A stretch of DNA of 64,000 nt from Pseudarthrobacter enclensis (GTDB lineage: Bacteria > Actinomycetota > Actinomycetes > Actinomycetales > Micrococcaceae), in the NCBI RefSeq assembly GCF_030811655.1, contig NZ_JAUSRE010000002.1:1-64000 (forward strand), given 5' to 3'. The notes under the pieces were generated by a model that had not been told where the DNA came from, made no database searches, and saw only the letters and a list, made by a program, of their open reading frames with translations. The position numbers and the translations under genes were made by a program. Of this stretch, positions 1,544 through 55,767 are shown one piece after another. The stretch's first letter is position 1; each line of letters starts with the position of its first letter.

Positions 1544-4500
1544 ATGCCTCGTTTCGCACTGGACATCGAGTCCGTCCCCCGTCCCGCCCGTTCGCAGGAA
1601 CTCCTGGACGCCGTGAACCACCGGGTGGTCATCGCCGACGGCGCCATGGGCACCATGCTCCAGGGCCGTGACCTGCAGCTCGACACGGACTTCCAGAACC
1701 TCGAGGGCTGCAACGAGATCCTCAACGACACCCGGCCGGATGTCATCGCCGACATCCACGACGCCTACTTCGCCACCGGCATCGACGCCGTGGAAACCAA
1801 CACCTTCGGCGCCAACTGGTCCAACCTCTCCGACTACGGCATCGATGACCGCATCGAAGAGCTCGCGCTCAAGGGCGCAAAGATCGCCCGCGAACGTGCC
1901 GAGGCGGCAGAAGAAACAGACGGGCGCATGCGCTGGGTCCTCGGCTCCATGGGCCCGGGCACCAAGCTCCCCAGCCTCGGCCACACCAGCTACGGCTGGC
2001 TCAAGCAGACCTTCGCCCTCCAGGCTGAGGGGCTGATCGACGGCGGGGCGGATGCGTTCCTCATCGAAACCAGCCAGGACCTCCTGCAGACCAAGGCCGC
2101 CGTCAACGGCTGCAAGCAGGCCATCGTCTCCAAGGGCATCCGCCTCCCCATCTTCGTCGAGGTCACGGTGGAGACCACCGGCACCATGCTCATGGGCTCG
2201 GAAATCGGCGCCGCACTCACCGCCCTGGAACCGCTCGGCGTCGACGCCATCGGCCTCAACTGCGCCACCGGCCCGGACGAGATGAGCGAACACCTCCGCC
2301 ACCTCTCCAAGCAGTCCTCCGTCGCCATCGCCTGCATGCCCAACGCCGGCCTGCCCGTCCTCGGCGCCAACGGCGCGCACTACCCGCTCACCCCCGCCGA
2401 ACTCGCCACCGCGCACGAGCAATTCGTCCGCGAATTCGGCCTGGGCCTGGTGGGCGGCTGCTGCGGTACGACGCCGGAACACATGGCCGCCGTCGTCGAA
2501 CGTCTTGCGCCCTTCCGTGCCAAAGCCGTGGCCACCAACAGCGGAAAGCCGGCAAGAATCCCCGAAGAGCGCGAGGCCGGCGTCGCCTCCCTCTACCAGC
2601 ACGTGAACTTCGACCAGGAGTCCGCCTACCTGGCTATCGGTGAGCGCACCAACGCCAACGGCTCCAAAGCCTTCCGCCTGGCCATGCTCGAAGAGCGCTG
2701 GGACGACTGCGTGGACATCGCCCGCGAACAGATCCGCGTCGGCGCCCACCTGCTGGACGTCTGCATCGACTACGTGGGCCGCGACGGCGTCGCCGACATC
2801 AAGGAGGTGGTGAGCCGCTTCGCCTCCGCCTCCACCCTCCCGCTGGTCATCGACTCCACCGAACCGCCCGTGCTGCGGGCCGGCCTGGAACTCATCGGCG
2901 GCCGCCCCGTGGTCAACTCCGTCAACTATGAGGACGGGGACGGCCCGGACAGCCGCTTCGCCCGCATCATGCCGCTGGTCAAGGAACACGGCACGGCCGT
3001 CATCGCCCTGACCATCGACGAACAGGGCCAGGCCCGCACCACCGACGGCAAGGTGGCCATCGCCTCCCGCCTCGTCGACGCCCTGGTGGGCGAATGGGGC
3101 ATGCGGGTCGAGGACATCATCGTGGACTGCCTCACCTTCCCCGTCGCCACCGGCCAGGAGGAAACCCGCCGCGACGGCATCGAAACCATCGAGGCCATCC
3201 GCCAGATCACTGCCAAGTACCCGGGCATCAACACCACCCTCGGCGTCTCCAACGTCTCCTTCGGCCTCAACCCGGCCGCCCGCATCGTGCTGAACTCCGT
3301 ATTCCTGCACGAAGCCGTCCAGGCCGGCCTGACCAGCGGCATCATCGACGCCGCCAAGATCGTCCCGCTCGCGTCCCTCCCGGAGGAGCAGCGCAAGGTG
3401 GCCCTGGACCTGGTCTGGGACCGCCGCGAATACGACGCCGACGGCAACACCACCTATGACCCCCTGGCCAGCATGCTGGACATGTTCGCCGGCGTCGACA
3501 CCGCGGCGCTCAAGGACCAGCGCGCCGCCGAACTCGCTGCGCTGCCCACGGGCGCGCGCCTGGAACGCCGCATCATCGACGGCGAAGGCAAGGGCCTGGA
3601 AGAGGACCTGGACCTGGCCCGCAGCGAAGGCATGACCCCGCTCGGCATCATCAACGACCACCTGCTCGAAGGCATGAAGGTGGTGGGCGAACGCTTCGGC
3701 GCCGGTGAAATGCAGCTGCCCTTCGTGCTGCAGTCCGCCGAGGTCATGAAGAACGCCGTGGCCCTGCTGGAGCCGCACATGGAAAAGTCGGACTCCTCCG
3801 GCAAGGGCACCATGGTGATCGCCACCGTGCGCGGCGACGTCCACGATATCGGTAAGAACCTGGTGGACATCATCCTCACCAACAACGGCTACAAAGTGGT
3901 CAACATCGGCATCAAGCAGGGCATCGCCGAGATCATCGCCGCGGCGGAGGAGCACAACGCCGACGTGATCGGCATGTCCGGGCTGCTGGTGAAGTCCACC
4001 GTGGTGATGAAGGAAAACCTCGCCGAGCTGCAGTCCCGCGGCCTGGCCAAGAAGTGGCCGGTCATCCTGGGCGGCGCAGCCCTCACCCGCGCCTATGTGG
4101 AACAGGACCTGGCCGAGCAGTTCGACGGCGTGGTCCGCTACGCCAAGGACGCCTTCGAGGGCCTGTCCCTCATGGAGCCGCTGGTGCGCGTTGCCCGCGG
4201 CGAATCGCCGGACGACGTCGGCCTGCCGCCGCTGAAGAAGCGCATCCACAAGGGCGGGGCGAAGTTCACGGTGACCGAGCCCGAAGCCATGCCCGGCCGC
4301 TCCGACGTCGCCACCGACAACCCCGTCCCCGTGCCGCCGTTCTGGGGCACCCGCATCGTCCGCGGCGTCTCGCTCCACGACTACTCCGCCTTCCTCGACG
4401 AACGCGCCACCTTCATGGGGCAATGGGGCCTCAAGCCCGGCCGCGGAGAAGACGGGGCCTCCTACGAGGAACTCGTGGAACGCGAAGGCCGCCCGCGCCT

Positions 4501-5185
4501 GCGCTACTGGCTGGACCGCATCCTGGGCGAAGGGATGCTGGACGCCTCCGTGGCCTACGGCTACTTCCCCGTGGTCTCCGAAGGCGAACAGGTGGTGGTG
4601 CTCCACCACGGCGAGGACCACGACGGCGTCCTGGGCCAGGCGGGCCTGCTCGCCCCCGACGGTGGTTCAGGCGGCCCCATCGGCACCGACCGCCTCCGGT
4701 TCGATTTCCCGCGCCAGCGCCGCGACCGGCACCTGTGCCTGGCCGACTTCGTAAAGTCCCGCGAGTCAGGGCAGATTGACGTGCTCCCCGTGCAGCTGGT
4801 CACCGCCGGTTCCAAGATCGAAGAGTTCACGTCCAAGATGTTCGCGGCCAACCAGTACCGCGACTACTACGAGCTCAACGGCCTGGTCATGCAGCTCACC
4901 GAGGCGCTCGCCGAGTTCTGGCACTCCCGGATCCGCAAGGAGCTCGGCTTCGCGGCCGAGGAGCCCAAGGACAAGGCCGGCCTGTTCAAGCTGGACTACC
5001 GCGGTGCCCGCTTCTCGCTCGGCTACCCGGCCTGCCCGGACATGGAGGACCGCCGCAAGGTCACCGAACTGCTCAAGCCCGAGCGCATGGGCGTGGTCCT
5101 GAGCGATGAGCTCATGCTGCACCCCGAGCAGTCCACCGACGCGTTCGTGTTCCACCACCCGGAGGCCAAGTACTTCAAGGTGTGA
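1544..5185 (+). CDS. metH: Cobalamin-dependent methionine synthase
   Basis: 1213 residues, the normal length for full MetH, which transfers methyl from 5-methyl-tetrahydrofolate through cobalamin to homocysteine in the cytoplasm. All four modules are present. The homocysteine domain (about 20-330) has zinc ligands Cys240, Cys306 and Cys307 (GGCCGTTPEH). The pterin-binding domain (about 355-620) begins near IGERTNANGSKAF. The cap and B12-binding domain carries the base-off signature D765-x-H767-x-x-G770, with His767 the axial ligand. The C-terminal AdoMet reactivation domain has the R-x-x-x-GYP motif (RFSLGYPACPD). No separate reductase partner is visible nearby. The gene is convergent with, and overlaps by 11 bp, an ECF-type transporter that may bring in B12. 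The start lacks a Shine-Dalgarno sequence and is probably leaderless. Confidence 0.97.
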   Translation: MPRFALDIESVPRPARSQELLDAVNHRVVIADGAMGTMLQGRDLQLDTDFQNLEGCNEILNDTRPDVIADIHDAYFATGIDAVETNTFGANWSNLSDYGIDDRIEELALKGAKIARERAEAAEETDGRMRWVLGSMGPGTKLPSLGHTSYGWLKQTFALQAEGLIDGGADAFLIETSQDLLQTKAAVNGCKQAIVSKGIRLPIFVEVTVETTGTMLMGSEIGAALTALEPLGVDAIGLNCATGPDEMSEHLRHLSKQSSVAIACMPNAGLPVLGANGAHYPLTPAELATAHEQFVREFGLGLVGGCCGTTPEHMAAVVERLAPFRAKAVATNSGKPARIPEEREAGVASLYQHVNFDQESAYLAIGERTNANGSKAFRLAMLEERWDDCVDIAREQIRVGAHLLDVCIDYVGRDGVADIKEVVSRFASASTLPLVIDSTEPPVLRAGLELIGGRPVVNSVNYEDGDGPDSRFARIMPLVKEHGTAVIALTIDEQGQARTTDGKVAIASRLVDALVGEWGMRVEDIIVDCLTFPVATGQEETRRDGIETIEAIRQITAKYPGINTTLGVSNVSFGLNPAARIVLNSVFLHEAVQAGLTSGIIDAAKIVPLASLPEEQRKVALDLVWDRREYDADGNTTYDPLASMLDMFAGVDTAALKDQRAAELAALPTGARLERRIIDGEGKGLEEDLDLARSEGMTPLGIINDHLLEGMKVVGERFGAGEMQLPFVLQSAEVMKNAVALLEPHMEKSDSSGKGTMVIATVRGDVHDIGKNLVDIILTNNGYKVVNIGIKQGIAEIIAAAEEHNADVIGMSGLLVKSTVVMKENLAELQSRGLAKKWPVILGGAALTRAYVEQDLAEQFDGVVRYAKDAFEGLSLMEPLVRVARGESPDDVGLPPLKKRIHKGGAKFTVTEPEAMPGRSDVATDNPVPVPPFWGTRIVRGVSLHDYSAFLDERATFMGQWGLKPGRGEDGASYEELVEREGRPRLRYWLDRILGEGMLDASVAYGYFPVVSEGEQVVVLHHGEDHDGVLGQAGLLAPDGGSGGPIGTDRLRFDFPRQRRDRHLCLADFVKSRESGQIDVLPVQLVTAGSKIEEFTSKMFAANQYRDYYELNGLVMQLTEALAEFWHSRIRKELGFAAEEPKDKAGLFKLDYRGARFSLGYPACPDMEDRRKVTELLKPERMGVVLSDELMLHPEQSTDAFVFHHPEAKYFKV

Positions 5186-8048
5186 GCTGGCGCCGCTTCC
5201 TGGCCGATGCGGAGGGGGCATGGGCCCAAACGGAGTGTCCGGCCTGGCCGCCGGGTCCCGGAACGCTGCCGGACACCGGCTTCACCCGCCGCAGCGAGGC
5301 CAGGACGGCGCGCCCCACCACGGCGATGCCGATCACCGTGGTGACCGCCCGCAGGGTGTCCCAGCCCGCCGTCGACGTCAGCAGTGAATACAGCAGGAAG
5401 CTGCTGAGGTTGGTGCCCAGCGGCGCGCCCGGAACGTATGAGATGCCCGTGCCGGCGCCCACCGCGAAGGGCCAGAACCACAAGTTCAGCAGCAGCCCGA
5501 ACAGGTACGACGAGACGACGCAGTAGCCCGCCAGCATCCACAGCTCCGCCCTGCCGCGCACCCGGCGGGGGAGCAGTCCGGCCCCCGCGCCCACCCACCC
5601 GCAGGCGAAGATCTGGAACGGCGTCCACGGGCCGATGCCGCCCCACAGCGTGCTGGAGAGGGCGATGGTGGCGGCGCCCAGGAGCAGGCCGAACCGGGGG
5701 CCGAATGCGCGGCCGGCCAGGATCAGCAGGATGAAGACGGCCTCCACGCCGCCGACGCCGGTGCTCGCCACCCGGACGGCGGAACCGACGGCAGCAAGCA
5801 CGCCGAGCAACGCCACGGTGTGCGCGGAGCGGACGGAGCCGTCAAGGGATACCACGACGGCGACCGCGGCCACGGGCGCGATGGCCAGCGCCGCGTACGG
5901 GAGGGCAGCGGTGGCGTCCTGGGGGAGGGCCGCGGCGAGCAGCGGCCAGCAGAACGCGGCCAGGGCGATCAGGTTGGCCGCTGCCAGCACCGTGAGCTCC
6001 GCGGCCCGGTGCATCCGGGGCCGGCGCTGCTTTTGCCCATCCCCAGTCCCGGACGGTTCCCTGACAACAGGTGAGGGAGGGGCGGGAAGCGCAGGCCGGG
6101 GACGCGGGACGAACGGCTCGGGGAGGGGAGGCGCCTCCGTTGCAGGCGCCACGCCATCCCGCATGGGGAGGATCCGGGCGCCCAGGCCATGGACGAAATC
6201 AAGGTCGTGCGTGGCGATCAGGACGGCCGCGCCATCCTCCGCCGCCGCGCACAGGGCTGACGAGACAGCCGCCCGGGCCGAAGGATCCAGCCCCCGCGTG
6301 GGCTCATCGATCAGGAGAACGTCAGGGGCGTCCATGGTCTGCAGGGCGATGGCAAGGATCCTGCGCTCCCCGGCGGACAGGTCCCGGGGATGCTCGTGGC
6401 CGATGGGCATCCGGGCGGCCCCGCGCAGCCGGGTCAGGCGTGCCGCTGCGGAACCGGACTCGAACCGCGCACCGTTCCTGCGGCGCTGCAGCCGCCGTTC
6501 CGCCGCCTGCAGTTCTCCTGCCACCGTGTCCCGGGTGAAGAGGTCGTCCGAGGCATCCGGCACCAGGGTGACCCGGCCGCCGTCGACCGTGCCGCCGTCG
6601 GTGCCTGCACTGCGCCCGCGCTCTGTGCCCAGGGCGAGGGCCACCAGGAGGGACGACTTCCCGGCTCCGTTCGGCCCCACCAGGGCAACGATCTCCCCGC
6701 GGTGCAGGGCCAGGGAGGCGTCACGCACCAGCGGTTTGCCGTCGCGGTGCACGGAAAGGTTCGTTGCGGTCAGGACGGCCGGATGGTCGGGGACGGCATT
6801 GGCCGCCGCTCCCACAGCCTCGTGGGCGGGAGCGGACGGCGCAGCACCCGGCACCAGGGATGCGCCATCGATGGTCCACCAGGAATCAGCCACGGGTACC
6901 AGCGTGTGCGCCCGGTGTTCGGCCACGACCACGCAGACGCCCTCCGCATGGGCCAGGGCATCCAGGACGCTGATGACGCGGGTGCGTGCGGTTGCGTCGA
7001 GGTCGGCCAGGGGCTCATCCACCAGGAGCAGCTGCGGATGGTCCACGACGGCGGCCGCGATGGCCACGAGCGTGGCCTCACCCGCCGAGAGGGTAGTCAC
7101 GGCCCGGTCCAGCAGTGCCGTGACCCCGATACGTTCCGCGACGTCCAGCACCCGGTCCTTGGCGCCGGCGGGCGCCATGCCGCGCAGCTCGAGTGCCAGG
7201 GCGATCTCGTCCCGGACCCGGCTGGTGGCGAAACCGGCCCGCGGGTTCTGCAGGACGACGCCGACCAGCCGGGCGGTCTCCCGCGGCGGGGCGGCGGCAC
7301 GGTCCAGCCCACCGACCTGCACGGTGCCGGAGATGTCCCCGCCGTCAACGTGCGACAGAAGCCCGGCGAGGCCGCGCAGGACGGTGGACTTGCCGGAGCC
7401 TGTGGGGCCGGTGACCACCGCGACCGAGCCACGGGGCGGCGCAAAGCTGTCAACCCTGATGCACGTGTCCGCCACGCGGAACTCTGCGCCGCGGACCACA
7501 AGTGGGGTGCCGCCGTCGGGCCCCTTTCCGTCGCCGCCCCGGCCGCCGAAGCCGCGCAGCTCCAGGGCAGCAGCCACCCGGGCGGCATGTTCGAGGGTGC
7601 GCTCCAGGATCGGGACCAGGGCGCGGGGTCCGAACCGCTCGCCCCGGAGCCGGAACGCCAGGCGCACGGAGGCCGCGGCGTCGGACAGTGCGGGGAGCGC
7701 CGCCCACGCCACCACGAGCATGCGGGCGATGCCCTGCAGGGGGCCGCCTCGGGCCAGCTTCACGAAGCCGCGGGACACGTCCACCCAGGCGTTGAGCAGG
7801 CCGAACGCGAGGATCATTCCGGCGATCGGGAGGGCGGACAGCACCGCTTCCCAGAGCCCGGGAGCTGATACCGGGCCGAGGAACACCACGTGGGCGTACG
7901 GGGCGGGAAGCCGCAGCGGCGGCAGGTTGAGCAGGACCGGGGTGCCGGTGCCCGCTCCATTGAAGAGGGCGCGGTAGAGGACCCGCGCCGCAACGAACAC
8001 GGCGGCGAGGGCCGCCGCTGCGCGTAACGGCGCGGGCCGGAAAATCAT
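5175..8048 (-). CDS. Single-chain ECF transporter (T-A-A-S fusion), candidate B12 importer
   Basis: 957 residues carrying what is usually four proteins. Residues 1-175 form a short EcfT-like membrane part ending in ALELRGFG, matching the EcfT coupling helix. The first ATPase (about 180-400) has Walker A GPTGSGKS (214-221) and Walker B LLVDEP (341-346); the second (about 425-635) has GPNGAGKS (458-465) and LLIDEP (578-583). A Pro-rich linker (635-675) leads to a six-helix substrate-binding S domain (about 680-940) with PWTPFQIFACGWVGAGAG, like the ECF S family that includes the cobalamin protein CbrT. Both ABC signatures read LSAGE instead of LSGGQ. It overlaps the upstream DUF4430-like lipoprotein gene by 4 bp, so they are probably translated together. 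The substrate is inferred from that partner and from convergent metH; a different vitamin remains possible. Confidence 0.8.
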   Translation of the reverse strand: MIFRPAPLRAAAALAAVFVAARVLYRALFNGAGTGTPVLLNLPPLRLPAPYAHVVFLGPVSAPGLWEAVLSALPIAGMILAFGLLNAWVDVSRGFVKLARGGPLQGIARMLVVAWAALPALSDAAASVRLAFRLRGERFGPRALVPILERTLEHAARVAAALELRGFGGRGGDGKGPDGGTPLVVRGAEFRVADTCIRVDSFAPPRGSVAVVTGPTGSGKSTVLRGLAGLLSHVDGGDISGTVQVGGLDRAAAPPRETARLVGVVLQNPRAGFATSRVRDEIALALELRGMAPAGAKDRVLDVAERIGVTALLDRAVTTLSAGEATLVAIAAAVVDHPQLLLVDEPLADLDATARTRVISVLDALAHAEGVCVVVAEHRAHTLVPVADSWWTIDGASLVPGAAPSAPAHEAVGAAANAVPDHPAVLTATNLSVHRDGKPLVRDASLALHRGEIVALVGPNGAGKSSLLVALALGTERGRSAGTDGGTVDGGRVTLVPDASDDLFTRDTVAGELQAAERRLQRRRNGARFESGSAAARLTRLRGAARMPIGHEHPRDLSAGERRILAIALQTMDAPDVLLIDEPTRGLDPSARAAVSSALCAAAEDGAAVLIATHDLDFVHGLGARILPMRDGVAPATEAPPLPEPFVPRPRPALPAPPSPVVREPSGTGDGQKQRRPRMHRAAELTVLAAANLIALAAFCWPLLAAALPQDATAALPYAALAIAPVAAVAVVVSLDGSVRSAHTVALLGVLAAVGSAVRVASTGVGGVEAVFILLILAGRAFGPRFGLLLGAATIALSSTLWGGIGPWTPFQIFACGWVGAGAGLLPRRVRGRAELWMLAGYCVVSSYLFGLLLNLWFWPFAVGAGTGISYVPGAPLGTNLSSFLLYSLLTSTAGWDTLRAVTTVIGIAVVGRAVLASLRRVKPVSGSVPGPGGQAGHSVWAHAPSASARKRRQLTP

Positions 8049-8602
8049 GCCGCGGGTGAGGCCGGCTGGTCGTCCACGGTGAAGAGCAGCTCGAAGCTTT
8101 CTCCCGGCTTCAGCTGCAGGGTGGCCAGGCCCTCCTGCGCGAAGGCCCAGTCACCGGAGACCGGCTTGACCCAAAGGCCCCAGTAGGCAAAAGCCGCAGG
8201 CATCTTGCTGCAGTCCTCGCGGTAGGTGCCGTCCTTGTGCTTGATGTCGAAATCGGCGGCGGGCACGCCGTTCACCCGGCACACCACTTCGTTGGGGTAC
8301 TGCGTGGTGCCCTCGGTCTTCACCTTTGCCTCTTCCAGCACCTTGGTGGCTGCGGTAGGTCCGTTCACCGGCACGCATACGGACGTGTCGGCCGCGGCCT
8401 GCTTCAGGGCGCCGGAATCGACCACGACCTGCACGCCGTTGCTGCAGGACCCGGAGGCGCTGGCTGAAGCGGATGCTGAGGAGGCGGGAGCGGAGGAGCT
8501 GGGCTGGTTGGCGGCCGGCGTGGAGCAGGCGGCGAGGGTAAGCAGGAGGCCTGCGGCGGCGAGGGAACTCGCGGCGGCGGTGCGGGTTTTAGTCAAAGTC
8601 AC
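8045..8602 (-). CDS. DUF4430-like (transcobalamin-type) lipoprotein
   Basis: 185 residues. A lipoprotein signal is clear: basic N-terminus, hydrophobic stretch and lipobox LAAC at about residues 23-26, then a Ser/Ala-rich spacer. The mature part shows TSVCVPVNGPTAATKVLEEA, GTTQYPNEVVCRVNGVP and a C-terminal AYWGLWV...GWAF-like segment followed by LKPGESFELLF, the pattern of DUF4430, a domain related to the C-terminal half of transcobalamin/intrinsic factor. Four cysteines in the mature region could form disulfides. It likely sits on the outer membrane face and hands a ligand to the fused ECF transporter encoded next (4-bp overlap). The start is GTG with TACCCT (8609-8614) 6 nt upstream, so the mRNA may be leaderless. 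The family match is by eye; B12 binding is inference. Confidence 0.7.
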   Translation of the reverse strand: MTLTKTRTAAASSLAAAGLLLTLAACSTPAANQPSSSAPASSASASASASGSCSNGVQVVVDSGALKQAAADTSVCVPVNGPTAATKVLEEAKVKTEGTTQYPNEVVCRVNGVPAADFDIKHKDGTYREDCSKMPAAFAYWGLWVKPVSGDWAFAQEGLATLQLKPGESFELLFTVDDQPASPAA

Positions 8603-8696
8603 GTGTCAAGGGTAGGGCGTTGTGCGCGAGGATCCAGAGGCGGTCTCCTTGTATGACGTTCCCGCTCCACATCCGCCGGGCTGGTGGCACCAAAAA

Positions 8697-8738
8697 GGGC
8701 CGACGGCGGCACTTTTTGGTAAGTGCCGCCGTCGGCCC
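8697..8738 (-). terminator. Intrinsic terminator of the codA-cluster permease
   Basis: A perfect 16-bp stem (8697-8712 with 8723-8738) around a 10-nt loop. On the minus strand the stem is followed by TTTTTGG, and it starts 16 bp after the permease stop codon. It separates the choline cluster from the lipoprotein/ECF operon downstream. Confidence 0.9.
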
Positions 8739-8754
8739 CGTTGGCCTTGCTTTC

Positions 8755-10371
8755 CTAGCTTTCGGTTGCCATGGCGGCGTTGACCGGCACCGCCTCGTGG
8801 GCCGATCCGAGCCGTTCCCCCTGGCCGGCGTGGGACGACGGGTGGGCTGCCACTGCTGCCGCGTGCTCGGCCAGCACTCCGGTGTGGTGCCGGATCTTGA
8901 GCCGGTAGAGCAGCGTCCCGCCAATGATCACTGCGGCCACGAACATCACGCCGCCCCACTGCAGGTACCACTCAAAGGGCGGCACCGAGTTGTAGATCTC
9001 GGGGCGGGGCCAAACGAGGTTGATGGTCATGGCGGCGCCCCAAAGGACCGCGAGGATGTTCACCGGAAGTCCCCACTTGCCCATGCGGAATCCGGGCTCG
9101 GAACCGTCCCCGACGAGGGGCCACTTCCTGGCCAGCCGTTTGCGGAGCAGGGGAACCGTGACCAGGAGGTAGGAGAGGTAGATCAGCACAATGCTGATGC
9201 TGGAGAGGATGGTGAAGATGGCCGGCTGGGTGACGTTGACCAGCAGTGGCAGGATGGCCAGGACGCCGATCACGATGGCGGCCACCGTGGGGGTGCGGCG
9301 GACGGGATCCACCTTGCTGAGCTGCCGGCTGAAGGGCAGGTTGTTGTCCCGGGCCATGGCGAACATCATCCGGATCGCGGCGGCGTGGACAGCCAGGGTG
9401 CAGACCACCACGGCCACCACGATGCAGGCCAGGAAGGCCTTGCCGAAGGGCCCACCCAGGACGGAGAGCACAATGTGCTGCAGGCCGCCGTCGGGGGAGC
9501 CGATCTGCGGGTCCGTGAGGTCCGGTGCCGCCAGGATGCCGAACAGCAGGATTCCCCCGCCCAGCAGGAACGACGCCGTGACGGCGCGGAGGATGGCCTT
9601 GGGCGCCGTGCGCTTGGGGTCCTTGGTTTCCTCGCCCAGGGAGCTGGCCGTGTCGAAGCCGTACATGACGTAGCCGGAGGCCATGGCGCCGATCAGGAAG
9701 ACGCCGAAGAAGCCCAGGTCGTTGCCCTCGCCGAAGCCGTTGGTCTGGAAGAACACCTCCGGCCCGCGGACCACGTGCCAGCCCAGGGCGAGGATCAGCA
9801 GCACGGCAGCGATGAGTTCAACGAAGACGCCGATGCTGTTGATCCTGGTCATCAGCTTCACGCCGAACGCGTTGATGAGGGTGGAGATGGTGATCATGAT
9901 GGTGGCCAGCACCACCCCGTTCATGGCGAAGTCGTAGGGGCCGGTGCCGTCACCGATGAACTGGAAGCCGGACCAGAGCTGCGGCAGGGTGATCTGCAGC
10001 GCCAGGGCCACGGAGCCCAGCGCCATGATGGAGGACAGCAGCAGCAGCCAGCCGGCGAGCCAGGACGAGGTCCCGGACGCCAGCCGCTTGGCCCAGTTGT
10101 AGACGGAGCCGGCTACCGGGTAGCGGCCGGCCAGTTCGGCGAAGCACAGGGCCACCATCAGCTGGCCGACGAACACGATGGGCCAGGACCAGGCATACGC
10201 CGGACCGGCCATGGAAAAGCCAAAGTAAAACAGTTGGAAAACACCGGTGAGGATGGATATGTAGCTGACACCTGCGGCGAAGCTGGCAAACTTGCCGATG
10301 CTTCGGTCCAAGGTCTGGGTGTAGCCGAATTCGTCCATGCCGCTGGAATCAATACTCTTGCTGGGTTCCAA
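8755..10371 (-). CDS. APC-superfamily permease, candidate choline uptake
   Basis: 538 residues with about 12 hydrophobic segments, of the amino acid-polyamine-organocation superfamily. It looks like the amino acid/choline branch: the first helix region has GVSYISILTGVFQLFYFGF, and later GFDTASSLGEETKDPKRTAPKAI, the usual cytoplasmic loop after helix 6. The C-terminal 45 residues are hydrophilic. It is the last gene of a minus-strand group after the betaine aldehyde dehydrogenase and choline oxidase genes, 107 bp from codA, and is closed by a strong terminator. Transport of choline (or a related amine) into the cell for oxidation to glycine betaine is inferred from this context. Family members vary in substrate, so GABA or another amino acid cannot be excluded. 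Confidence 0.75.
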   Translation of the reverse strand: MEPSKSIDSSGMDEFGYTQTLDRSIGKFASFAAGVSYISILTGVFQLFYFGFSMAGPAYAWSWPIVFVGQLMVALCFAELAGRYPVAGSVYNWAKRLASGTSSWLAGWLLLLSSIMALGSVALALQITLPQLWSGFQFIGDGTGPYDFAMNGVVLATIMITISTLINAFGVKLMTRINSIGVFVELIAAVLLILALGWHVVRGPEVFFQTNGFGEGNDLGFFGVFLIGAMASGYVMYGFDTASSLGEETKDPKRTAPKAILRAVTASFLLGGGILLFGILAAPDLTDPQIGSPDGGLQHIVLSVLGGPFGKAFLACIVVAVVVCTLAVHAAAIRMMFAMARDNNLPFSRQLSKVDPVRRTPTVAAIVIGVLAILPLLVNVTQPAIFTILSSISIVLIYLSYLLVTVPLLRKRLARKWPLVGDGSEPGFRMGKWGLPVNILAVLWGAAMTINLVWPRPEIYNSVPPFEWYLQWGGVMFVAAVIIGGTLLYRLKIRHHTGVLAEHAAAVAAHPSSHAGQGERLGSAHEAVPVNAAMATES

Positions 10372-10478
10372 ATTGGACTCCTGGATCAGAAAGCACGATG
10401 GGACAGGCCGCCCTGGGGTGCGGCGGATTAACGCTTGGGGCCGTGGCTGTCGGGAATGCGGGCCCTAAGGCCTGCCGC

Positions 10479-12119
10479 TCAGGCGAGGGCTGACGTCAGC
10501 TCCAACTCGTTCGTTCCATCGACGCCGGTGCGTCCGGCTCGGATCAGGTCGGCACAGCGCTCGCCGATCATCATGACGGTGATGTTGGGGTTCACGGTGA
10601 CGTGTTCGGGCATGACGGACGCATCCGCCACCCGGAGCCCGGTGACGCCCTTGACCCGCAGCTCGGGGTCCAGCGGCGACATGTTGTCGTCGGCCGGGCC
10701 CAGGCGGACGGTCCCGACGGGGTGGTACACGGTGTTGTGGGTCTTGCGGATGTAGTCCTGCAGTTCCTCATCCGTCTGCGCCTCGATGCCGGGCGAGAGT
10801 TCGCGGCCGGTCCATTCCGCCATGGCGGGCTGGGCGGCGATCTCGCGGGCCTTGCGGATGCCGGCCACCATGACGCGCATGTCGTGGCCCTCCGGATCGG
10901 TGAAGTAGCGCGGGTCCACCATGGGCTTGTCGCGGAAGTCGCGGCTGCGCAGCCGGACGGTGCCGCGGGAGCGGGCGTGGGTGACGTTCGGGGTCAGGCT
11001 GAAGCCGTTCTCGGTGGTGGGGTAGCCGTGCCGCAGCGTGTTCATGTCGAACGGGACGGACCCGTAGTGCATCATCAGGTCGGGGCGGTCCAGGCCGTCC
11101 TCGGTGGGGGTGAAGATGCCGATTTCCCACCACTGCGTGGAGGTCTGCACCATGGGCTGCTTCGCCTCGAACTGCACCACGCCTTCGGGGTGGTCCTGCA
11201 GATGCTCGCCCACGCCGGGGGAGTCCACCAGCACCTCGATGCCGTGCGCGGCGAGGTGTTCAGCCGGGCCGATGCCGGAGAGCATGAGCAGCTTGGGGGA
11301 GTCGATGGCGCCGGTGGACACGATGACTTCCCGGTGGGCGGTGAGCCGGTGGGTGCGGCCGAAGGCTCCGTCCACCACGTCCACGCCGGTGCAGCGCTTG
11401 TCCGCGTCGAACACCAGCTGGCGGGCACGCAGCCCGGTCAGCAGGGTGAAGTTGGGGCGGTCCACGATGGGGTGGATGTAGGAGACCGAGCTGGAGGCGC
11501 GGGTGCCGTCCGCCTGCCGGTTGATCTGGAAGAAGTTGGCGCCGTTGACCACGGTGGTGCCGGTGTTGAACCTGGCGCGTGGGATGCCTGCCTGCTCGCA
11601 GGCATCGAGGAGGGCGACGCCGGCAGGGTCCGCCGGGGGCACGTTCATCAGGTGCACGGGGCCTGAGTCCCCGTGGTGGGGTGCGTCAGGTCCGGCGTCC
11701 TCGTTGGTTTCCAGGCGCTTGTACAGCGGCCACGCGGCGTCCGCGTTCCAGCCGGTGGCGCCGTACTTGGACTCCCACTCGTCCAGGTCCTCGCGCGGAG
11801 CCCAGAAGGCGATGCAGGAATTGTGGCTGGAGCAGCCGCCCATCACCTTGGCGCGGGCGTGCCGCATGAAGGAGTTGCCGTTCTCCTGCGGCTCGATGGG
11901 GTAGTCCCAGTCGTAGCCGGATTCCAGCAGTTCCATCCAGCGGTCCAGCTGCAGGATTTCAGGGATGTTGCGGTCGTCCGGGCCCGCTTCGACGAGGGCG
12001 ACGGTGACCTCCGGGTCCTCGCTGAGCCGTGCGGCCACGGCGGCGCCGGCGGACCCGCCGCCGATCACGACGTAGTCGAATCCGCGGTCGCTCACGTCCT
12101 CAATGTTGTCGTAGTGCAT
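10479..12119 (-). CDS. codA: Choline oxidase
   Basis: 546 residues, a flavin GMC oxidoreductase that oxidises choline through betaine aldehyde to glycine betaine with O2, giving H2O2. The sequence follows what I recall of the Arthrobacter globiformis enzyme almost throughout, at the same length. The residues known from that enzyme are in place: the dinucleotide motif GGGSAG (20-25), His99 (covalent FAD) and Ser101 in CSSHNS, Glu312, His351, Val464, His466 (VYHPVG) and Asn510 (TVNPN). These distinguish it from membrane choline dehydrogenase BetA. The ATG at 12119 directly follows the stop codon of the aldehyde dehydrogenase gene, with AAGGAG 6-11 nt upstream inside that gene, so the two are co-transcribed. 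Regulation probably comes from the operator pair at 13679-13718. Confidence 0.96.
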   Translation of the reverse strand: MHYDNIEDVSDRGFDYVVIGGGSAGAAVAARLSEDPEVTVALVEAGPDDRNIPEILQLDRWMELLESGYDWDYPIEPQENGNSFMRHARAKVMGGCSSHNSCIAFWAPREDLDEWESKYGATGWNADAAWPLYKRLETNEDAGPDAPHHGDSGPVHLMNVPPADPAGVALLDACEQAGIPRARFNTGTTVVNGANFFQINRQADGTRASSSVSYIHPIVDRPNFTLLTGLRARQLVFDADKRCTGVDVVDGAFGRTHRLTAHREVIVSTGAIDSPKLLMLSGIGPAEHLAAHGIEVLVDSPGVGEHLQDHPEGVVQFEAKQPMVQTSTQWWEIGIFTPTEDGLDRPDLMMHYGSVPFDMNTLRHGYPTTENGFSLTPNVTHARSRGTVRLRSRDFRDKPMVDPRYFTDPEGHDMRVMVAGIRKAREIAAQPAMAEWTGRELSPGIEAQTDEELQDYIRKTHNTVYHPVGTVRLGPADDNMSPLDPELRVKGVTGLRVADASVMPEHVTVNPNITVMMIGERCADLIRAGRTGVDGTNELELTSALA

Positions 12120-13658
12120 CTAGTTCTCCTTGCTGTGGTCAGCGAACCAGCCGGTGACCTGCGGCCTGGTGTTCTGGTAGATGTGCTTGGCTTCCTGGTA
12201 TTCGGCCAGGCCGGTGGGGCCCAGCTCGCGGCCGACGCCGGACTGGCCAAAGCCGCCCCACTCGGCCTGCGGGAGGTAGGGGTGGTAGTCGTTGATCCAG
12301 ATGGTGCCGTGCCGAAGCCTGCCCGCCACCCGCTGGGCCTTCCCGGCGTCCTGCGTCCAGACGGCCCCGGCCAGCCCGTAGATGGTGTCGTTGGCGATCG
12401 CCACGGCCTCGTCCTCGGTGCGGAAAGTTTCCACCGTGACCACCGGGCCGAACGCCTCGTCGGTGACCACGGACATGCCGCGCTGCACCTGGTCCAGGAT
12501 GGTGGGCAGGTAGTAGAACCCGGCGTCGTACTTCTCCCCGGAAGGCGCCGAGCCGCCGGTCCTCAGCCGGGCGCCTTCGGCGATGCCGCGCTGGACGTAC
12601 TCGTGGACACTGTCGCGGTGTCCTGCCGAGATCAGCGGGCCGGTCTCGGCGTCGTCGTCGAAGGGGCCGCCCAGGCGGATGCCTTCAGCGCGGCGCACCA
12701 GTTCATCCACGAAGCGTTCGGCGATGGATTCCTCGACCACCAGTCGGGCGCCCGCGGAGCAGACCTGGCCGGAGTGGACGAAGGCACCGTTGAGCGCGTT
12801 GTCCACTGCGGCATCGAAGTCGGCGTCCGCGAAGATGACGTTCGGATTCTTGCCGCCCAGTTCAAGCGCAATTTTCTTGACGGTGGCGGCAGCGGTGGCC
12901 GCGATGCGCTTGCCGGTTTCCAGCCCGCCGGTGAACGAGATGAGGTCGACGTCGGGGTGTTCGGACAGCGGTGCCCCAACCTTGGTGCCGGGCCCGGTGA
13001 GAAGGTTCGCGACGCCGTCGGGCAGGCCCAGGTCCTGCATGAGCTGCATGCACAGGATGCTGGTGGACGGGGTTAATTCGGCCGGCTTGAGGACGAAGGT
13101 GCAGCCGGCTGCCAGGGCGGGTGCGATCTTCCAGGCGGCCTGGAGGAGGGGGTAGTTCCACGGTGTGATGAGGCCGCAGACGCCGACCGGTTCATAGACA
13201 ATCCGGCTGACGACGTCCGGATTCCCGGCGTCCACCACACGGCCCGGCTGTTGGCCCGCGAGCCTGCCGAAGTACTCGAAGCAGGCGGCGATGTCATCGA
13301 TGTCGATGCGGCTTTCCACGATGCGCTTACCAGTGTCCAGCGATTCGGCGCGGGCAAACTTTTCCCGGTGCTCCCGCAGGCCGGCGGCGACCTTGAGCAG
13401 GAACGTGCCGCGCTCGGGGGCCGGGACGGAAGACCAGACTCCGGAGTCGAAGGCTGCCCGGGCCGCGGCAATGGCGCGTTCGGCGTCCTCACGGCCGCCT
13501 TCGGACACCATGGCGACTACTTCGCCGTCGGCGGGATTGCGGATCTCCCGGGCGGCGCCGGAGGCTGCCGGTTCCCAGCGGCCGTTGATGAACAGGGTGC
13601 GGGGCGTCTCGGGGAGGGCGCGTGCGGCGGCGTCCCCGTCGGGTGTGGCGTAAGTCAT
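12120..13658 (-). CDS. betB: Betaine aldehyde dehydrogenase (NAD(P)+)
   Basis: 512 residues of the aldehyde dehydrogenase superfamily. It has the substrate-channel Asn (PWNYPLLQAAWKIAPAL), the nucleotide-site sequence SFTGGLETGKRI, catalytic Glu in LELGGKNPNV and catalytic Cys in GQVCSAGARL. With codA directly downstream (stop and start adjacent) the expected reaction is betaine aldehyde to glycine betaine, completing an osmoprotectant pathway. I chose the ATG at 13658: TACTGT (13666-13671, minus strand) lies 7 nt upstream, and TTGAAC lies 17 nt before that. An upstream extension would run through the operators and into the regulator gene. Codon use matches its neighbours. Substrate assignment rests on operon context; the family alone would say only aldehyde dehydrogenase. 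Confidence 0.92.
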   Translation of the reverse strand: MTYATPDGDAAARALPETPRTLFINGRWEPAASGAAREIRNPADGEVVAMVSEGGREDAERAIAAARAAFDSGVWSSVPAPERGTFLLKVAAGLREHREKFARAESLDTGKRIVESRIDIDDIAACFEYFGRLAGQQPGRVVDAGNPDVVSRIVYEPVGVCGLITPWNYPLLQAAWKIAPALAAGCTFVLKPAELTPSTSILCMQLMQDLGLPDGVANLLTGPGTKVGAPLSEHPDVDLISFTGGLETGKRIAATAAATVKKIALELGGKNPNVIFADADFDAAVDNALNGAFVHSGQVCSAGARLVVEESIAERFVDELVRRAEGIRLGGPFDDDAETGPLISAGHRDSVHEYVQRGIAEGARLRTGGSAPSGEKYDAGFYYLPTILDQVQRGMSVVTDEAFGPVVTVETFRTEDEAVAIANDTIYGLAGAVWTQDAGKAQRVAGRLRHGTIWINDYHPYLPQAEWGGFGQSGVGRELGPTGLAEYQEAKHIYQNTRPQVTGWFADHSKEN

Positions 13659-13694
13659 ACCGAGCACAGTAATGGAGATTGAACAACTGTTCAA
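13659..13694 (-). promoter_or_regulatory. Promoter of betB-codA, probably leaderless
   Basis: Reading the minus strand: TTGAAC (13694-13689), a 17-nt spacer, TACTGT (13671-13666), then 7 nt to the betB ATG at 13658. The -35 is part of the proximal operator half, so a bound repressor would cover it. No ribosome site lies before the ATG, which suggests a leaderless transcript. Confidence 0.65.
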
Positions 13695-13718
13695 TACTTT
13701 TCTTGAACAGTTGTTCAA
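13679..13718. promoter_or_regulatory. Twin operators of the choline cluster
   Basis: Two 16-bp sites, TTGAACAACTGTTCAA (13679-13694) and TTGAACAGTTGTTCAA (13703-13718), are exact reverse complements of each other. Each is a 7+7 palindrome TTGAACA/TGTTCAA around two central bases, and the centres are 24 bp apart. They lie between the TetR gene and betB and cover the predicted -35. This is the geometry expected for a TetR/BetI-type dimer pair, probably relieved by choline or betaine aldehyde. Confidence 0.85.
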
Positions 13719-13759
13719 TGCTACGCAAGGGTGACTGTTGTTGCCTTGCTGCAGGATTG

Positions 13760-14386
13760 TTAGGGCTGGCCGGGTTCCTGGTCCTGGCCGGCTGTGCCAT
13801 CCAGCGGCGCGAACGCGATCTGCTCCGTCCGCTCGATGCTTCGCTCGATTGACGCCTTGTCGACGCCGAGCAACGCGGTGAGCCACACGCCGTTCTGGAT
13901 CACCACAATGTCCGACGCCCGCTCCCTGCACACCTCCCACGGCAGCTCCGGCTTGGCGCTGGACACCAGCGCTGCGACACCGTCGATGTACCGGTCGAAC
14001 GCGGCGGCGTTGATCTGGGCGTAGTCCTCGTCGGCCTGGGCGAGGGCCCACAGGTGCAGGCGCAGGGACAGGTAGCGGGTGGTCAGCAGGTCAGCGGCCG
14101 CCACCCGGCGGAGGGCCCTGCGCAGCTGTTCATCCGGGGCCAGCGACGGGTCCGGGGCAACGAGCCGGAGGTCGTGCTCATCAACCCGGCCCAGGGCGGC
14201 CCTGATCAGCGTGGCCTTGTCGTCGTAGTAGTAGTTGACCAGGCCCAGAGCCACGCCGGCCTCGCGCGCCACGGAGCGCATGCTCACCCCTGAAATGCCA
14301 TGACGGGAGAGCAGGTCCATCGCCGCCTCGAGGATGCGGGATTGCCTGTCGGATTGTTCGCCGGAGTTCACGGCACTGGTCCCCAT
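13760..14386 (-). CDS. TetR-family regulator of the choline cluster (BetI-like role)
   Basis: 208 residues. The N-terminal 60 residues are a TetR helix-turn-helix: RILEAAMDLLSRHGISGVSMRSVAREAGVAL followed by LGLVNYYYDDKATL, where the Y-Y-x-x-K recognition signature is plain. The C-terminal ligand domain resembles the BetI branch in position and length. The gene lies upstream of betB-codA in the same direction, and the two palindromic operators sit between them at 13679-13718. The start ATG at 14386 is preceded by TAGTGT (14393-14398) at 6 nt, with no Shine-Dalgarno sequence, so it is also a leaderless candidate. Choline or betaine aldehyde as inducer is inference; a direct comparison with BetI would be needed to name it. 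Confidence 0.85.
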   Translation of the reverse strand: MGTSAVNSGEQSDRQSRILEAAMDLLSRHGISGVSMRSVAREAGVALGLVNYYYDDKATLIRAALGRVDEHDLRLVAPDPSLAPDEQLRRALRRVAAADLLTTRYLSLRLHLWALAQADEDYAQINAAAFDRYIDGVAALVSSAKPELPWEVCRERASDIVVIQNGVWLTALLGVDKASIERSIERTEQIAFAPLDGTAGQDQEPGQP

Positions 14387-47514: not shown

Positions 47515-47609
47515 GGCCCTCAATCTACCCCTGTCCGGTGTAAACTTGACCACGCCCAGCTGGGCGGATATTGAAGCCTTACCCAACCCAAAAAGCATCA
47601 CTAAAAACG

Positions 47610-47730
47610 ACAGGGGAGCGCCGCCGTCGGGCATCCTGGCAGAAGCCGGGCACCGCAGGTGGGCGCTGAGAGTGCGGACAGCCGCAGACCCTCGAACCTG
47701 ATCCGGTTAGTACCGGCGCAAGGGAGTCGA
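47610..47730 (+). promoter_or_regulatory. TPP riboswitch (THI element)
   Basis: The conserved parts are in order: GGGAGCGCC near 47614, GCTGAGAGTGCGG around 47660-47672, CCGCAGACCCTCGAACCTGATC, GGTTAGTACCGGCG and AAGGGAG near 47720-47726. It precedes the ykoEDC genes for uptake of a thiamine precursor. Confidence 0.95.
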
Positions 47731-47784
47731 GTTCTCGGGGTGTCGCGGCCCTACGGCAACGGCCGTGGGCCGGGTCCACTTTCC

Positions 47785-47803
47785 CCTCCTGTTTCCCAGG
47801 AGG
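47785..47803 (+). promoter_or_regulatory. SD-sequestering hairpin of the TPP riboswitch
   Basis: CCTCCTG (47785-47791) pairs perfectly with CAGGAGG (47797-47803), which is the ribosome site 5 nt before the ykoE ATG. When formed it would hide the Shine-Dalgarno sequence, so the switch probably works at the translation level. Confidence 0.75.
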
Positions 47804-47808
47804 ATTAC

Positions 47809-48432
47809 ATGAGCACTGCAGCAATCAAGAAAAGCGCCGGCAAGTCCTGGCGCGTCGTGGACATCGTCGTGGCGGCCCTGGTGGCCATCGCGGGTGGCGT
47901 CATCTTCTGGGCATGGGACCAGGGTGCCGCCGCGCTGTCCGCCCCCATGAACGCCGCCTACCCACCCCTCACCGGGCTGCTGGCCGGCGGCTGGATGATT
48001 CCCGGCGTGCTGGGCATGCTCATCATCCGAAAGCCCGGCGCCGCTATCTTCTGCGAAACGGTTGCCGCTACCGGGGAACTCCTCATGGGCTCGCAGTACG
48101 GCGCGTCCGTCCTCTTCTCCGGCTTGATCCAGGGCTTGGGCGCGGAAATCATCTTCGCCATCTTCGTCTACCGCAAGTTCAACCTGCCCGTCTCCCTGCT
48201 GGCAGGCGCGGCGGCCGGGTTCTTCTGCGGCCTGAATGACTCCTTCGCCCCTTGGGGCTGGAACATCGCCTACTCGGGCGCGGACAAGCTCGCCTACATC
48301 GTCCTCACCACGGTCTCCGGGGCCATCCTGGCCGGTGCCCTGTGCTGGCTTGCCACCCGCGGCCTGGCCCGCACCGGGGTGCTGAGCTCCTTCGCGTCCC
48401 GCAAGGCCGCCACGGAGCCAGTCTTCTCCTGA
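47809..48432 (+). CDS. ykoE: ECF transporter S component YkoE (HMP/thiamine type)
   Basis: 207 residues with about five or six hydrophobic segments. The sequence matches the YkoE family: VDIVVAALVAIAGGVIFWAWDQGAA, GAAIFCETVAATGELLMGSQYGASVLFSGLIQGLGAEIIFAIF and GFFCGLNDSFAPWGWNIAYSGADKLAY. YkoE binds thiamine or its precursor hydroxymethylpyrimidine for import. The ATG at 47809 has AGGAGG upstream. Gene order E-D-C under a TPP riboswitch gives strong functional support. Its stop overlaps the next gene's ATG by one base. Confidence 0.93.
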   Translation: MSTAAIKKSAGKSWRVVDIVVAALVAIAGGVIFWAWDQGAAALSAPMNAAYPPLTGLLAGGWMIPGVLGMLIIRKPGAAIFCETVAATGELLMGSQYGASVLFSGLIQGLGAEIIFAIFVYRKFNLPVSLLAGAAAGFFCGLNDSFAPWGWNIAYSGADKLAYIVLTTVSGAILAGALCWLATRGLARTGVLSSFASRKAATEPVFS

Positions 48433-49979
48433 TGGTCCCCTCCCAGGACGCCGGCGGCGCGGTCCGCCCCGCCGCCGTCAGCGCCCGCGGATGGGGGTGG
48501 CGGCATGCCGGCCGATCCAGGCCCGCCGTCCATGCCCTCGACCTGGACATCGCTCCCGGTGAGCGCGTGCTCCTCCTCGGACCTTCCGGCGCCGGGAAAT
48601 CCACGCTGCTGCATGCGCTCGCCGGCGTGCTGGGGGACATCAACGACGACGGCGAGTCCGGGGACGCCGACGAGTCCGGTTCGCTGCTGGTTGACGGCGC
48701 CGTGCCCCGCGCCCAGCGCGGGCGGGCCGGGCTCATGCAGCAGGACCCGGAAACGCAGGTGGTGCTGTCGCGCGTTGGGGACGACGTCGCCTTTGGTGCC
48801 GAAAACCTCGCCGTACCCCGCGACGCCATCTGGGCGCGCGTGCACGAGGCGCTTGCCGACGTCGGGCTCGCCCACCTCCCGCTGGACCACCCGACCTCGG
48901 CCCTGTCCGGCGGCCAGAAGCAGCGCCTCGCGCTGGCCGGCATCCTTGCCATGCGTCCCGGCCTGATCCTGCTGGACGAACCCACCGCCAACCTGGACCC
49001 GGACGGCGTGCTGGAAGTCCGGGACGCCGTTGCCCGCTGCCTGGACAAGACCGGGGCCACGCTGGTGGTGGTGGAACACCGGGTGTCTGTCTGGAAGGAC
49101 CTGGTGGACCGGATCGTCGTCCTGCAGCCGGGCAGCAGCAGCGAATCCGCCGTGCTCCTGGACGGCCCGCCGGACCGGGTGCTCCGCGAGGCGCGGACCA
49201 TGCTCGCCGCCGCGGGGGTGTGGGTCCCCGGCTATGTGCCGGCCACCCGGACCAGGGATTTGGTACCGGCACCCGGAACGGGAAACCTCCTGCTGGCCGC
49301 CGAACAATTGGCAGTTTCCCGCGAACGTCCCCGCCGCAAGGGTTTCCGCAGGATACCGCCGGTCCCCGTCCAGGACGGGGTGGCCGCCCAGGTCCGCGCC
49401 GGGCAGGCCCTGGCTGTTACCGGTCCCAATGGAGCAGGAAAATCCACCTTCGCGCTGACCCTCGCCGGGCTGCTGGAGCCCGTATCCGGAAAGGTTTCCG
49501 CGAGCCTGGACCTCAGCCAGGGCGCGGGTATCGACCCGTACAAGTGGAAGGCCGAGCAGTTGATTTCCCGCGTGGGGACAGTGTTCCAGGAGCCGGAGCA
49601 CCAGTTCGTGACCGGCAAGGTGCTTGATGAGCTGCTGTTTGGCCCGCGGCACCTGGGCCACGGCGAGGAACGGGTTGACGAACTGCTGGAGCGCCTGCGC
49701 CTCACGCACGTGGTGGACGCCAACCCCTACACGCTCTCCGGGGGTGAAAAGAGGCGGTTGTCCGTAGCCACCGTCCTTGCCGCCAGCCCCCAGGTCCTGG
49801 TCCTCGATGAGCCCACGTTCGGGCAGGACGCCAACACCTGGGCTGAGCTGGCCTCGTTCCTGTCCGAGCTCCTGGACGCCGGCACAGCGGTGGTGTCCGT
49901 CACCCACGATGCCGAGTTCACGGCCGCCCTGGGCGGGGTGGAGCTGCGGATGGCTGCGGCGGAAGTGGTGGCCCCATGA
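48432..49979 (+). CDS. ykoD: ECF transporter ATPase with two domains, YkoD type
   Basis: 515 residues, two ABC ATPase domains in one chain. Domain 1 (about 10-275) has Walker A GPSGAGKS (50-57), signature LSGGQKQR (158-165) and Walker B LILLDEP (178-184). Domain 2 (about 290-510) has GPNGAGKS (331-338), signature LSGGEKRR and Walker B LVLDEP. It powers uptake by YkoE with YkoC. Unlike the fused transporter at 5175-8048, both signature motifs here are canonical. Confidence 0.94.
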   Translation: MVPSQDAGGAVRPAAVSARGWGWRHAGRSRPAVHALDLDIAPGERVLLLGPSGAGKSTLLHALAGVLGDINDDGESGDADESGSLLVDGAVPRAQRGRAGLMQQDPETQVVLSRVGDDVAFGAENLAVPRDAIWARVHEALADVGLAHLPLDHPTSALSGGQKQRLALAGILAMRPGLILLDEPTANLDPDGVLEVRDAVARCLDKTGATLVVVEHRVSVWKDLVDRIVVLQPGSSSESAVLLDGPPDRVLREARTMLAAAGVWVPGYVPATRTRDLVPAPGTGNLLLAAEQLAVSRERPRRKGFRRIPPVPVQDGVAAQVRAGQALAVTGPNGAGKSTFALTLAGLLEPVSGKVSASLDLSQGAGIDPYKWKAEQLISRVGTVFQEPEHQFVTGKVLDELLFGPRHLGHGEERVDELLERLRLTHVVDANPYTLSGGEKRRLSVATVLAASPQVLVLDEPTFGQDANTWAELASFLSELLDAGTAVVSVTHDAEFTAALGGVELRMAAAEVVAP

Positions 49980-55722: not shown

Positions 55723-55767
55723 GACGGATCTCCTTCTTTCACGCTTGCAGCTCGAATCGGTCGATAT

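Follow-up and report, generated by a model that had tools for sequence, protein, structure and literature searches.

Next to the cobalamin-dependent methionine synthase gene metH of Pseudarthrobacter enclensis lies a lipoprotein gene followed by a single open reading frame (ORF) for an entire energy-coupling factor (ECF) transporter. Which vitamin does this locus import, and what could the lipoprotein contribute? We examined the first 64,000 nucleotides of contig NZ_JAUSRE010000002.1 (RefSeq assembly GCF_030811655.1), here called the window, in which a first-pass annotation had described a transcobalamin-like DUF4430 lipoprotein and a one-chain transporter (5175-8602) as a candidate vitamin B12 importer. 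In our reading, the locus very probably encodes an ECF-type importer of the dedicated kind (group I), which brings in cobalamin, and probably also related corrinoids, for use by MetH. The earlier proposal of a compact importer for the vitamin used by the neighboring enzyme is thus supported by searches with the substrate-binding S domain, by surveys of riboswitches and metH around related loci, and by the predicted fold of the lipoprotein. The features of the locus are as follows.

1544-5185 (+): metH, cobalamin-dependent methionine synthase (TIGR02082, 1333 bits; PF02965, PF02310, PF02607)
5175-8048 (-): P0001, single-chain ECF transporter of 957 amino acids, domain order T-A-A-S; start codon within a 4-bp overlap with the end of the lipoprotein ORF
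7539-8048 (-): T domain (EcfT/CbiQ-like), residues 1-170 (PF02361)
6849-7508 (-): ATPase domain A1, residues 181-400 (PF00005; GPTGSGKST at 214, LSAGE at 320, LLLVDEP at 340)
6129-6788 (-): ATPase domain A2, residues 421-640 (second PF00005 stretch; GPNGAGKSS at 458, LSAGE at 557, VLLIDEP at 577)
5997-6128 (-): proline-rich linker from A2 to S, residues 641-684
5274-5996 (-): S domain, residues 685-925, apparently CbrT-like (sequence comparisons, PF12822, dN/dS)
8045-8602 (-): P0002, lipoprotein of 185 amino acids, with signal peptide, lipobox LAAC (Cys26), Ser/Ala-rich spacer and then the beta domain
8048-8452 (-): predicted transcobalamin-type beta domain of P0002, residues 51-185 (structure model, PDB comparisons)
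8689-8745 (no strand assigned): strong hairpin in the interval between a permease gene and the lipoprotein gene, with 86 bp remaining before the lipoprotein start

A complete ECF transporter in one chain, paired with a lipoprotein

The 957-codon ORF of P0001 holds all four parts of an ECF importer, and the claim of a complete transporter in one chain was borne out at the extent proposed. The stop codon of the lipoprotein ORF and the start codon of P0001 share the 4 bp ATGA, and the tail-to-tail placement with metH was confirmed as well, the two convergent ORFs overlapping by 11 bp at their 3' ends. PF00005 matches P0001 twice (133 bits), and Walker A, signature and Walker B motifs are retained in both A1 and A2. 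The T domain matches PF02361 (CbiQ/EcfT) over residues 23-169 with 20.2 bits, under the cut-off of 25; the T protein of a relative in Streptomyces sp. SAT1 (L106) reaches 38.5 bits, and the family detects the T region (E <= 1e-3) in 35 of the 40 loci L111-L150. The window T domain also harbors the sequences FRLRG (at 132) and ELRGF (at 163), which we take to be possible coupling motifs. The class features of ECF transporters, namely two ATPase domains, a T domain (weak for the window itself) and an S-component, were each found in P0001. Since these parts form one polypeptide, a linker of about 45 residues ties the S domain to the ATPase half. Across 60 related chains, 51 to 112 residues (median 59) separate position 625 from the beginning of S.

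A pattern scan of GTDB species genomes, with only close relatives within its reach, yielded 60 loci. Three of them (L073-L075) matched the ATPase part alone and were dropped, leaving 57 whole-chain relatives, 56 from Arthrobacter and Pseudarthrobacter and one from the metagenome-assembled genome of a distant actinomycete (L072). The lipoprotein gene lies upstream of the transporter gene and adjoins it in all 57 (56/56 Arthrobacter-type loci plus L072); the pairing is a conserved unit and not a chance arrangement. T, A, A and S share a single open frame in 54 of the 56 Arthrobacter-type loci and in L112-L114, which belong to another family of the order. This one-frame fusion is absent from the surveyed loci outside the order (L106-L108, L110, L115 onward) and from L072, where S has its own frame. 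L072, with 66% identity in S and 44% over the chain, keeps the lipoprotein, T-A-A, S and a convergent metH 71 bp from S. Comparison with six relatives showed S to be the most constrained part of the operon in all six cases (dN/dS 0.07-0.13) and the lipoprotein to be the least constrained in five of them (0.20-0.36).

The S domain resembles CbrT-type proteins

The S domain matches PF12822 (ECF_trnsprt) with 23.6 bits, under the cut-off of 30.7, and this family matches 40 of 46 aligned S domains at E <= 0.01, that of the window included. Among NCBIfam models, the window S domain reaches E <= 0.01 with a single one, the folate family TIGR04518 (17 bits, cut-off 60). This family matches 14 of the 46 S domains (best 2.4e-6), and the riboflavin family PF07155 matches 12. 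Since the CbrT-type protein P0007 of Lactobacillus plantarum itself exceeds the PF07155 cut-off, we read these folate and riboflavin hits as superfamily matches.

Screening 72,556 plasmid records with the window S domain (E <= 1e-5) returned 12 matches, five of them actinobacterial relatives and seven CbrT-type proteins of lactobacilli (39% over 85 residues, E 3e-6), a name that reportedly goes back to Rodionov in 2009. The seven are 99.6-100% identical to one another and therefore count as about one case. Outside its own family, CbrT-type proteins were thus the only matches in these records, in agreement with the likeness to CbrT noted by the first-pass annotation. A P0010 relative (P0010 being the DUF4430 protein of the plasmid) is encoded in all seven records, near CbrT in only about three of them; an eighth CbrT relative, from L. 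curvatus and more distant (54%), came without one in the same search.

CbrV, CbrU and CbrT are named for plasmid pMF1298-5 of L. plantarum MF1298, together with nrdJ, cobA and cobS (PMC6722938). The passages of that paper on CbrV, CbrU and CbrT give no gene coordinates; we took P0007 as CbrT because it is the S-component adjoining T and A-A, the other S-component of the plasmid lying by cobS. In a five-protein set, with composition correction and masking off, the window S domain aligned to P0007 with 33% identity over 170 residues (E 3e-22), and a profile of the 46 S domains matched it at 9e-25; hhalign gave 98.6%. P0007 in turn matched chain A of the solved ECF-CbrT (6fnp_A) at 1.8e-9. Judged from these alignments, the window S domain appears closer to CbrT than to other S-components.

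The lipoprotein is predicted to have the fold of a B12-carrier beta domain

An alignment of 39 close lipoprotein sequences contains four invariant cysteines and an invariant Tyr-Trp pair, and in a wider set of 22 beta domains three of these cysteines and the Trp are invariant. The structure model built from the 39 sequences reached a predicted local distance difference test (pLDDT) score of 90.5. In Foldseek, its best 15 chains were all transcobalamin or haptocorrin (E 4e-4 to 0.03, 14-18% identity). A second comparison with PDB structures placed 14 entries of transcobalamin, haptocorrin or intrinsic factor and the R. gnavus protein 3u7z in its top 15 rows (Z 9.6-10.8; 94-98 residues; root-mean-square deviation 2.8-3.2), the first unrelated row following at Z 6.4. 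The best match was 4zrp_B (Z 10.8, deviation 2.8 over 95 residues, 20% identity), and 5np4, the isolated human beta domain solved with cyanocobalamin, was among the top ones. At the level of the predicted structure, the assignment of the lipoprotein to the fold of a B12-carrier beta domain holds.

The family name given to it earlier did not stand: while the relation to the B12-carrier fold is supported by structure comparison, PF14478 (DUF4430) matches neither the lipoprotein nor any of the 22 aligned beta domains, nor anything else in the genome. The NCBIfam SCO2322 family (NF040672, curated cut-off 85 bits) matches 21 of the 22 beta domains at E <= 0.1 (best 1.2e-8), the window lipoprotein being the sole one without a match; by sequence, its relatives seem to belong near this family. 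A literature search for SCO2321-SCO2325 gave nothing relevant. Furthermore, no alpha/alpha-barrel family matches P0002, and searches of PDB sequences with the lipoprotein and the S domain, singly and as profiles, yielded nothing useful.

Cobalamin-riboswitch matches precede many related S domain genes

Searching 396 Actinomycetota genomes with the S domain gave 150 positives (E <= 0.001). For cobalamin riboswitches (RF00174) we sampled 52 genomes with 54 S loci from the upper part of this list (to about E 1e-23), selected with their neighborhoods unseen; 21 genomes of similar strength and all weaker ones were left out. In 30 of the 54 loci (29/52 genomes), S has an RF00174 match on its own strand 3.4-7.3 kb upstream, and 12 of these matches exceed the gathering score. 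The chance expectation for an upstream match within 10 kb is 0.15, given 130 matches in the 52 genomes. Among genomes with exactly one RF00174 match, 10 of 18 have it upstream of S. Since the genomes are related, these loci are not independent. Of these 30 riboswitch-linked loci, 26 were examined for neighboring genes; a gene for a barrel or a beta domain is found on the same strand in 22 of the 26, and in 21 the first recognized match starts at most 1.2 kb from the riboswitch. Six further S loci were compared with all of Rfam; two of them (L106, L110) have a same-strand upstream element over the gathering score and one (L108) has an element on the opposite strand.

The order at L106, in Streptomyces sp. 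SAT1, is riboswitch, a protein with beta domain and alpha/alpha barrel, a second beta-domain protein, T, A-A, S and a convergent metE. In the first of these proteins (L106:8842-11577), squalene-cyclase-like alpha/alpha-barrel stretches lie C-terminal to the beta domain, the reverse of the domain order in animal transcobalamin. This protein is possibly a convergent or rearranged B12 carrier.

The window differs from these loci. Its hairpin leader region (8400-9200) has no cobalamin riboswitch among the Rfam matches at E <= 10. A cobalamin riboswitch of full length would not fit into the 86 bp from the hairpin to the lipoprotein start, though some partial matches to RF00174 in other places span just 63-77 nucleotides. 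As no cobalamin riboswitch was found in this genome, the riboswitch evidence applies to it by kinship only.

metH and B12 synthesis in relatives

The window MetH is a clear equivalog by TIGR02082. Among 120 sampled genomes of the family to which the window belongs, seven have S and nine have MetH; all seven S genomes are among the nine, and two MetH genomes are without S. Within the window's genus, three of the six sampled genomes have both and three have neither. This co-occurrence is less independent than it looks, because just two genera carry S and neighboring genes can be lost together. CbiC, one marker of de novo B12 synthesis, was found in none of the 120 genomes, and the source bacterium appears unable to make vitamin B12.

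In flanks of mostly 8 kb around the 56 Arthrobacter-type loci, metH is convergent with the transporter at 38 (three of these calls being based on 25-28 identical residues where the examined stretch ends), is less than 500 bp away at 21, and never points in the same direction. At L113, metH lies 97 bp from S. With 30 of 54 loci behind RF00174 matches and metH in seven of seven S genomes, the survey of co-occurrence with metH or B12 genes that the first-pass annotation had suggested turned out favorably. A side observation concerns L070, where a 19-residue scrap of the MetH C terminus (L070:11332-11388), 95% identical, lies 545 bp from S and a full metH match is found elsewhere in the genome. 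Insertions may have split the metH neighborhood in some strains.

Proposed mechanism and alternative explanations

We propose that the lipoprotein would be anchored on the outer face of the membrane, where its transcobalamin-type beta domain could capture a corrinoid and hand it to the S domain. The S domain would carry the corrinoid inward in the manner assumed for other ECF S-components, with ATP hydrolysis by A1 and A2 driving import through the T domain and MetH using the imported product. The tether of about 45 residues could permit undocking of S and not its loss. What the data show is the architecture, the predicted lipoprotein fold, the kinship of S with CbrT, the riboswitch matches beside relatives and the co-occurrence with metH; the ligand, the direction of transport, the hand-over and a functional role of the tether are what we infer. 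A beta domain without a barrel is unusual for a carrier, so binding by the lipoprotein may be weak and its role that of a lid for S.

Several observations weigh against a cobalamin importer at this locus. Only two of five lipoprotein models were confident, the other three being poor, and the Foldseek TM-scores are modest (0.42-0.53 by query length). The barrel family PF13243, the only one searched there, is absent from the genome, whereas barrels occur in the animal carriers and in many of the riboswitch-linked relatives. A control search of the PDB with the 46-sequence S profile missed the solved S-components of every vitamin at E <= 10, that of 6fnp among them, and the S model is poor (58.0) and was used for fold class only. 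Its 17 best PDB rows are nevertheless all ECF S-components (Z 6.9-9.6), with riboflavin S-components in the best rows. Among the 30 upstream RF00174 matches, 18 are below the gathering score (24.2-31.1 bits versus 31.5), and 24 of the 54 S loci have no same-strand upstream match. Ten of these 24 are in genomes without any RF00174 match (five from the window's order, counting the window genome), two have a match 2.8-2.9 kb away on the other strand, three lie less than 2 kb from a contig end and nine are in genomes with matches elsewhere. Neither the window genome nor four other genomes of its order have an RF00174 match, and the all-Rfam search gave no cobalamin riboswitch over the gathering score at L017, L072 or L107, the first two of which count here. 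Furthermore, metH is outside the examined flank at 18 of the 56 loci; it is elsewhere in the genome in 17 of these, and none was found in L022, a draft genome with the locus on an 8.6-kb contig. MetE is also encoded in the window genome, so methionine synthesis does not depend on B12. Additional importers of B12 would count in the same direction; PF06472, which we take to be the family of the Rv1819c or BacA type, has no match in the window genome, and BtuFCD was not searched for.

We consider it very improbable that the chain imports folate, riboflavin or another vitamin and merely adjoins metH, with a lipoprotein of unrelated function. MetH also uses methyl-folate, and such a transporter would fit the sub-threshold folate match of the window S domain, the riboflavin-family matches among its relatives and the riboflavin S-components at the top of the comparison with the poor S model. 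This explanation leaves unaccounted the cobalamin-riboswitch matches upstream of relatives and the B12-carrier fold of the lipoprotein; the S domain is similar to a CbrT-type protein that itself matches PF07155, and its profile finds no solved riboflavin or folate S-component at E <= 10 either. The first-pass annotation had named best hits to another vitamin's family, combined with no tendency to occur with B12 genes, as evidence against its proposal: the named-vitamin hits are indeed to folate and riboflavin, which we interpret at superfamily level, while the tendency to occur with B12 genes is present. Somewhat less remote, and still improbable, is a substrate such as an incomplete corrinoid or another cobamide (e.g., cobinamide) in place of cobalamin itself. 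MetH requires a complete cobamide, and the lack of CbiC in the family sample also speaks for uptake of cobalamin. Neither the riboswitch matches nor the carrier fold can tell one corrinoid from another, and ECF-CbrT of Lactobacillus delbrueckii is described as transporting both cobalamin and cobinamide (PMC5997447).

A more serious alternative, which we regard as doubtful, concerns the lipoprotein alone: it could be an adaptor or assembly factor that binds no ligand, with S alone binding B12 as in the Lactobacillus ECF-CbrT. S-components bind their substrates without helpers, the lipoprotein has no barrel partner of the PF13243 type in the genome, and in most comparisons no other part of the operon is under weaker constraint. 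The closest folds to the lipoprotein are nevertheless B12 carriers, among them the isolated human beta domain with cyanocobalamin, and the same domain occurs in riboswitch-linked operons of relatives. Returning to the capture of corrinoid by the lipoprotein, a broader proposal can be made, over which we are evenly divided: that this is an ECF importer departing from its class in two ways, with an external capturing lipoprotein of the animal B12-carrier fold and a permanently tethered S domain, so that B12 transport could not depend on S diffusing freely away from the ECF module, and that the lipoprotein is a reduced bacterial transcobalamin working with CbrT-type pumps in at least two phyla.

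Other features of the window

Upstream of the lipoprotein gene, the region 8755-14386 (-) encodes an amino-acid permease of the urea-carboxylase type according to a family search, along with ORFs that presumably encode a choline-dehydrogenase-like protein, a betaine-aldehyde-dehydrogenase-like protein and a TetR-like regulator; it is likely a choline-to-betaine operon. The permease was considered as a member of the transport system and left out, because a match upstream of the lipoprotein is present in just part of the 56 loci and at varied distance. A second ECF-like system follows a thiamin pyrophosphate (TPP) riboswitch at 47602-49979 (+). Its ORFs, which we take to encode a YkoE-like S-component and a fused pair of ATPases, look like an ordinary thiamin-type system, in contrast to the riboswitch-free B12 locus. 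At 53843-55851 (-), an S-adenosylmethionine (SAM)-IV riboswitch (86.5 bits) lies about 0.7 kb upstream of an ORF whose product we assume to be a sulfhydrylase of methionine synthesis.

Comparison with known systems

Transcobalamin, haptocorrin and intrinsic factor share the beta-domain fold predicted for the lipoprotein. These animal carriers have an added alpha/alpha barrel, are soluble and use receptors rather than an ECF pump. The bacterial importers BacA and BtuFCD differ in architecture from the window importer. Both are documented as cobalamin importers (BacA of the Rv1819c type; PMC10960864, PMC5997447).

Among the closest known systems is ECF-CbrT of L. delbrueckii (PDB 6fnp), which was characterized in 2018 (PMC5997447) and for which cobalamin import was demonstrated (PMC5997447, PMC12075633). 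Its S-component is kin to the window S domain via P0007 of L. plantarum. It differs as a group II transporter with separate subunits, in which one ECF module serves several S-components, whereas the fused chain of the window implies a dedicated module; the word lipoprotein is absent from the main text of PMC5997447. The CbrV-CbrU-CbrT locus of pMF1298-5 (L151) is similar to the window in having its own T, fused A-A and S, with a DUF4430 gene second downstream, and differs in its separate chains. A comparison of the lipoprotein profile with the DUF4430 protein of this plasmid was not significant (0.032 in a five-sequence set; hhalign 1.5%), and no cobalamin riboswitch over the gathering score was found on the plasmid. 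Between the CbrT and DUF4430 genes, L151:29455-30507 is annotated as a fucose-binding lectin and has no Pfam match; its product contains repeats that we consider reminiscent of an alpha/alpha barrel.

Among actinobacterial systems, the L106 locus shares the S family, the beta domain, T and A-A with the window and has a cobalamin riboswitch upstream. It differs in encoding T, A-A and S by separate genes, in having an alpha/alpha barrel, and in adjoining metE rather than metH. An ECF module behind cobalamin and adenosylcobalamin (AdoCbl) riboswitches in acI Actinobacteria is described as a predicted cobalamin transporter (PMC5301498) and is a possible member of the window family.

Among the matches listed in a search of open-access literature, most subscription papers lying outside it, no carrier-fold lipoprotein with an ECF pump and no four-part fusion is described. 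The combination of a motor-tethered S domain within a single chain and an adjacent lipoprotein resembling B12 carriers looks new. With a CbrT-like S domain naturally tied to the motor and the same likely ligand, the locus makes the need for S release directly testable. A fold known from human B12 carriers would also be connected with a bacterial uptake pump, and the locus provides a candidate B12 importer for soil bacteria of a group whose 120 sampled genomes lacked CbiC.

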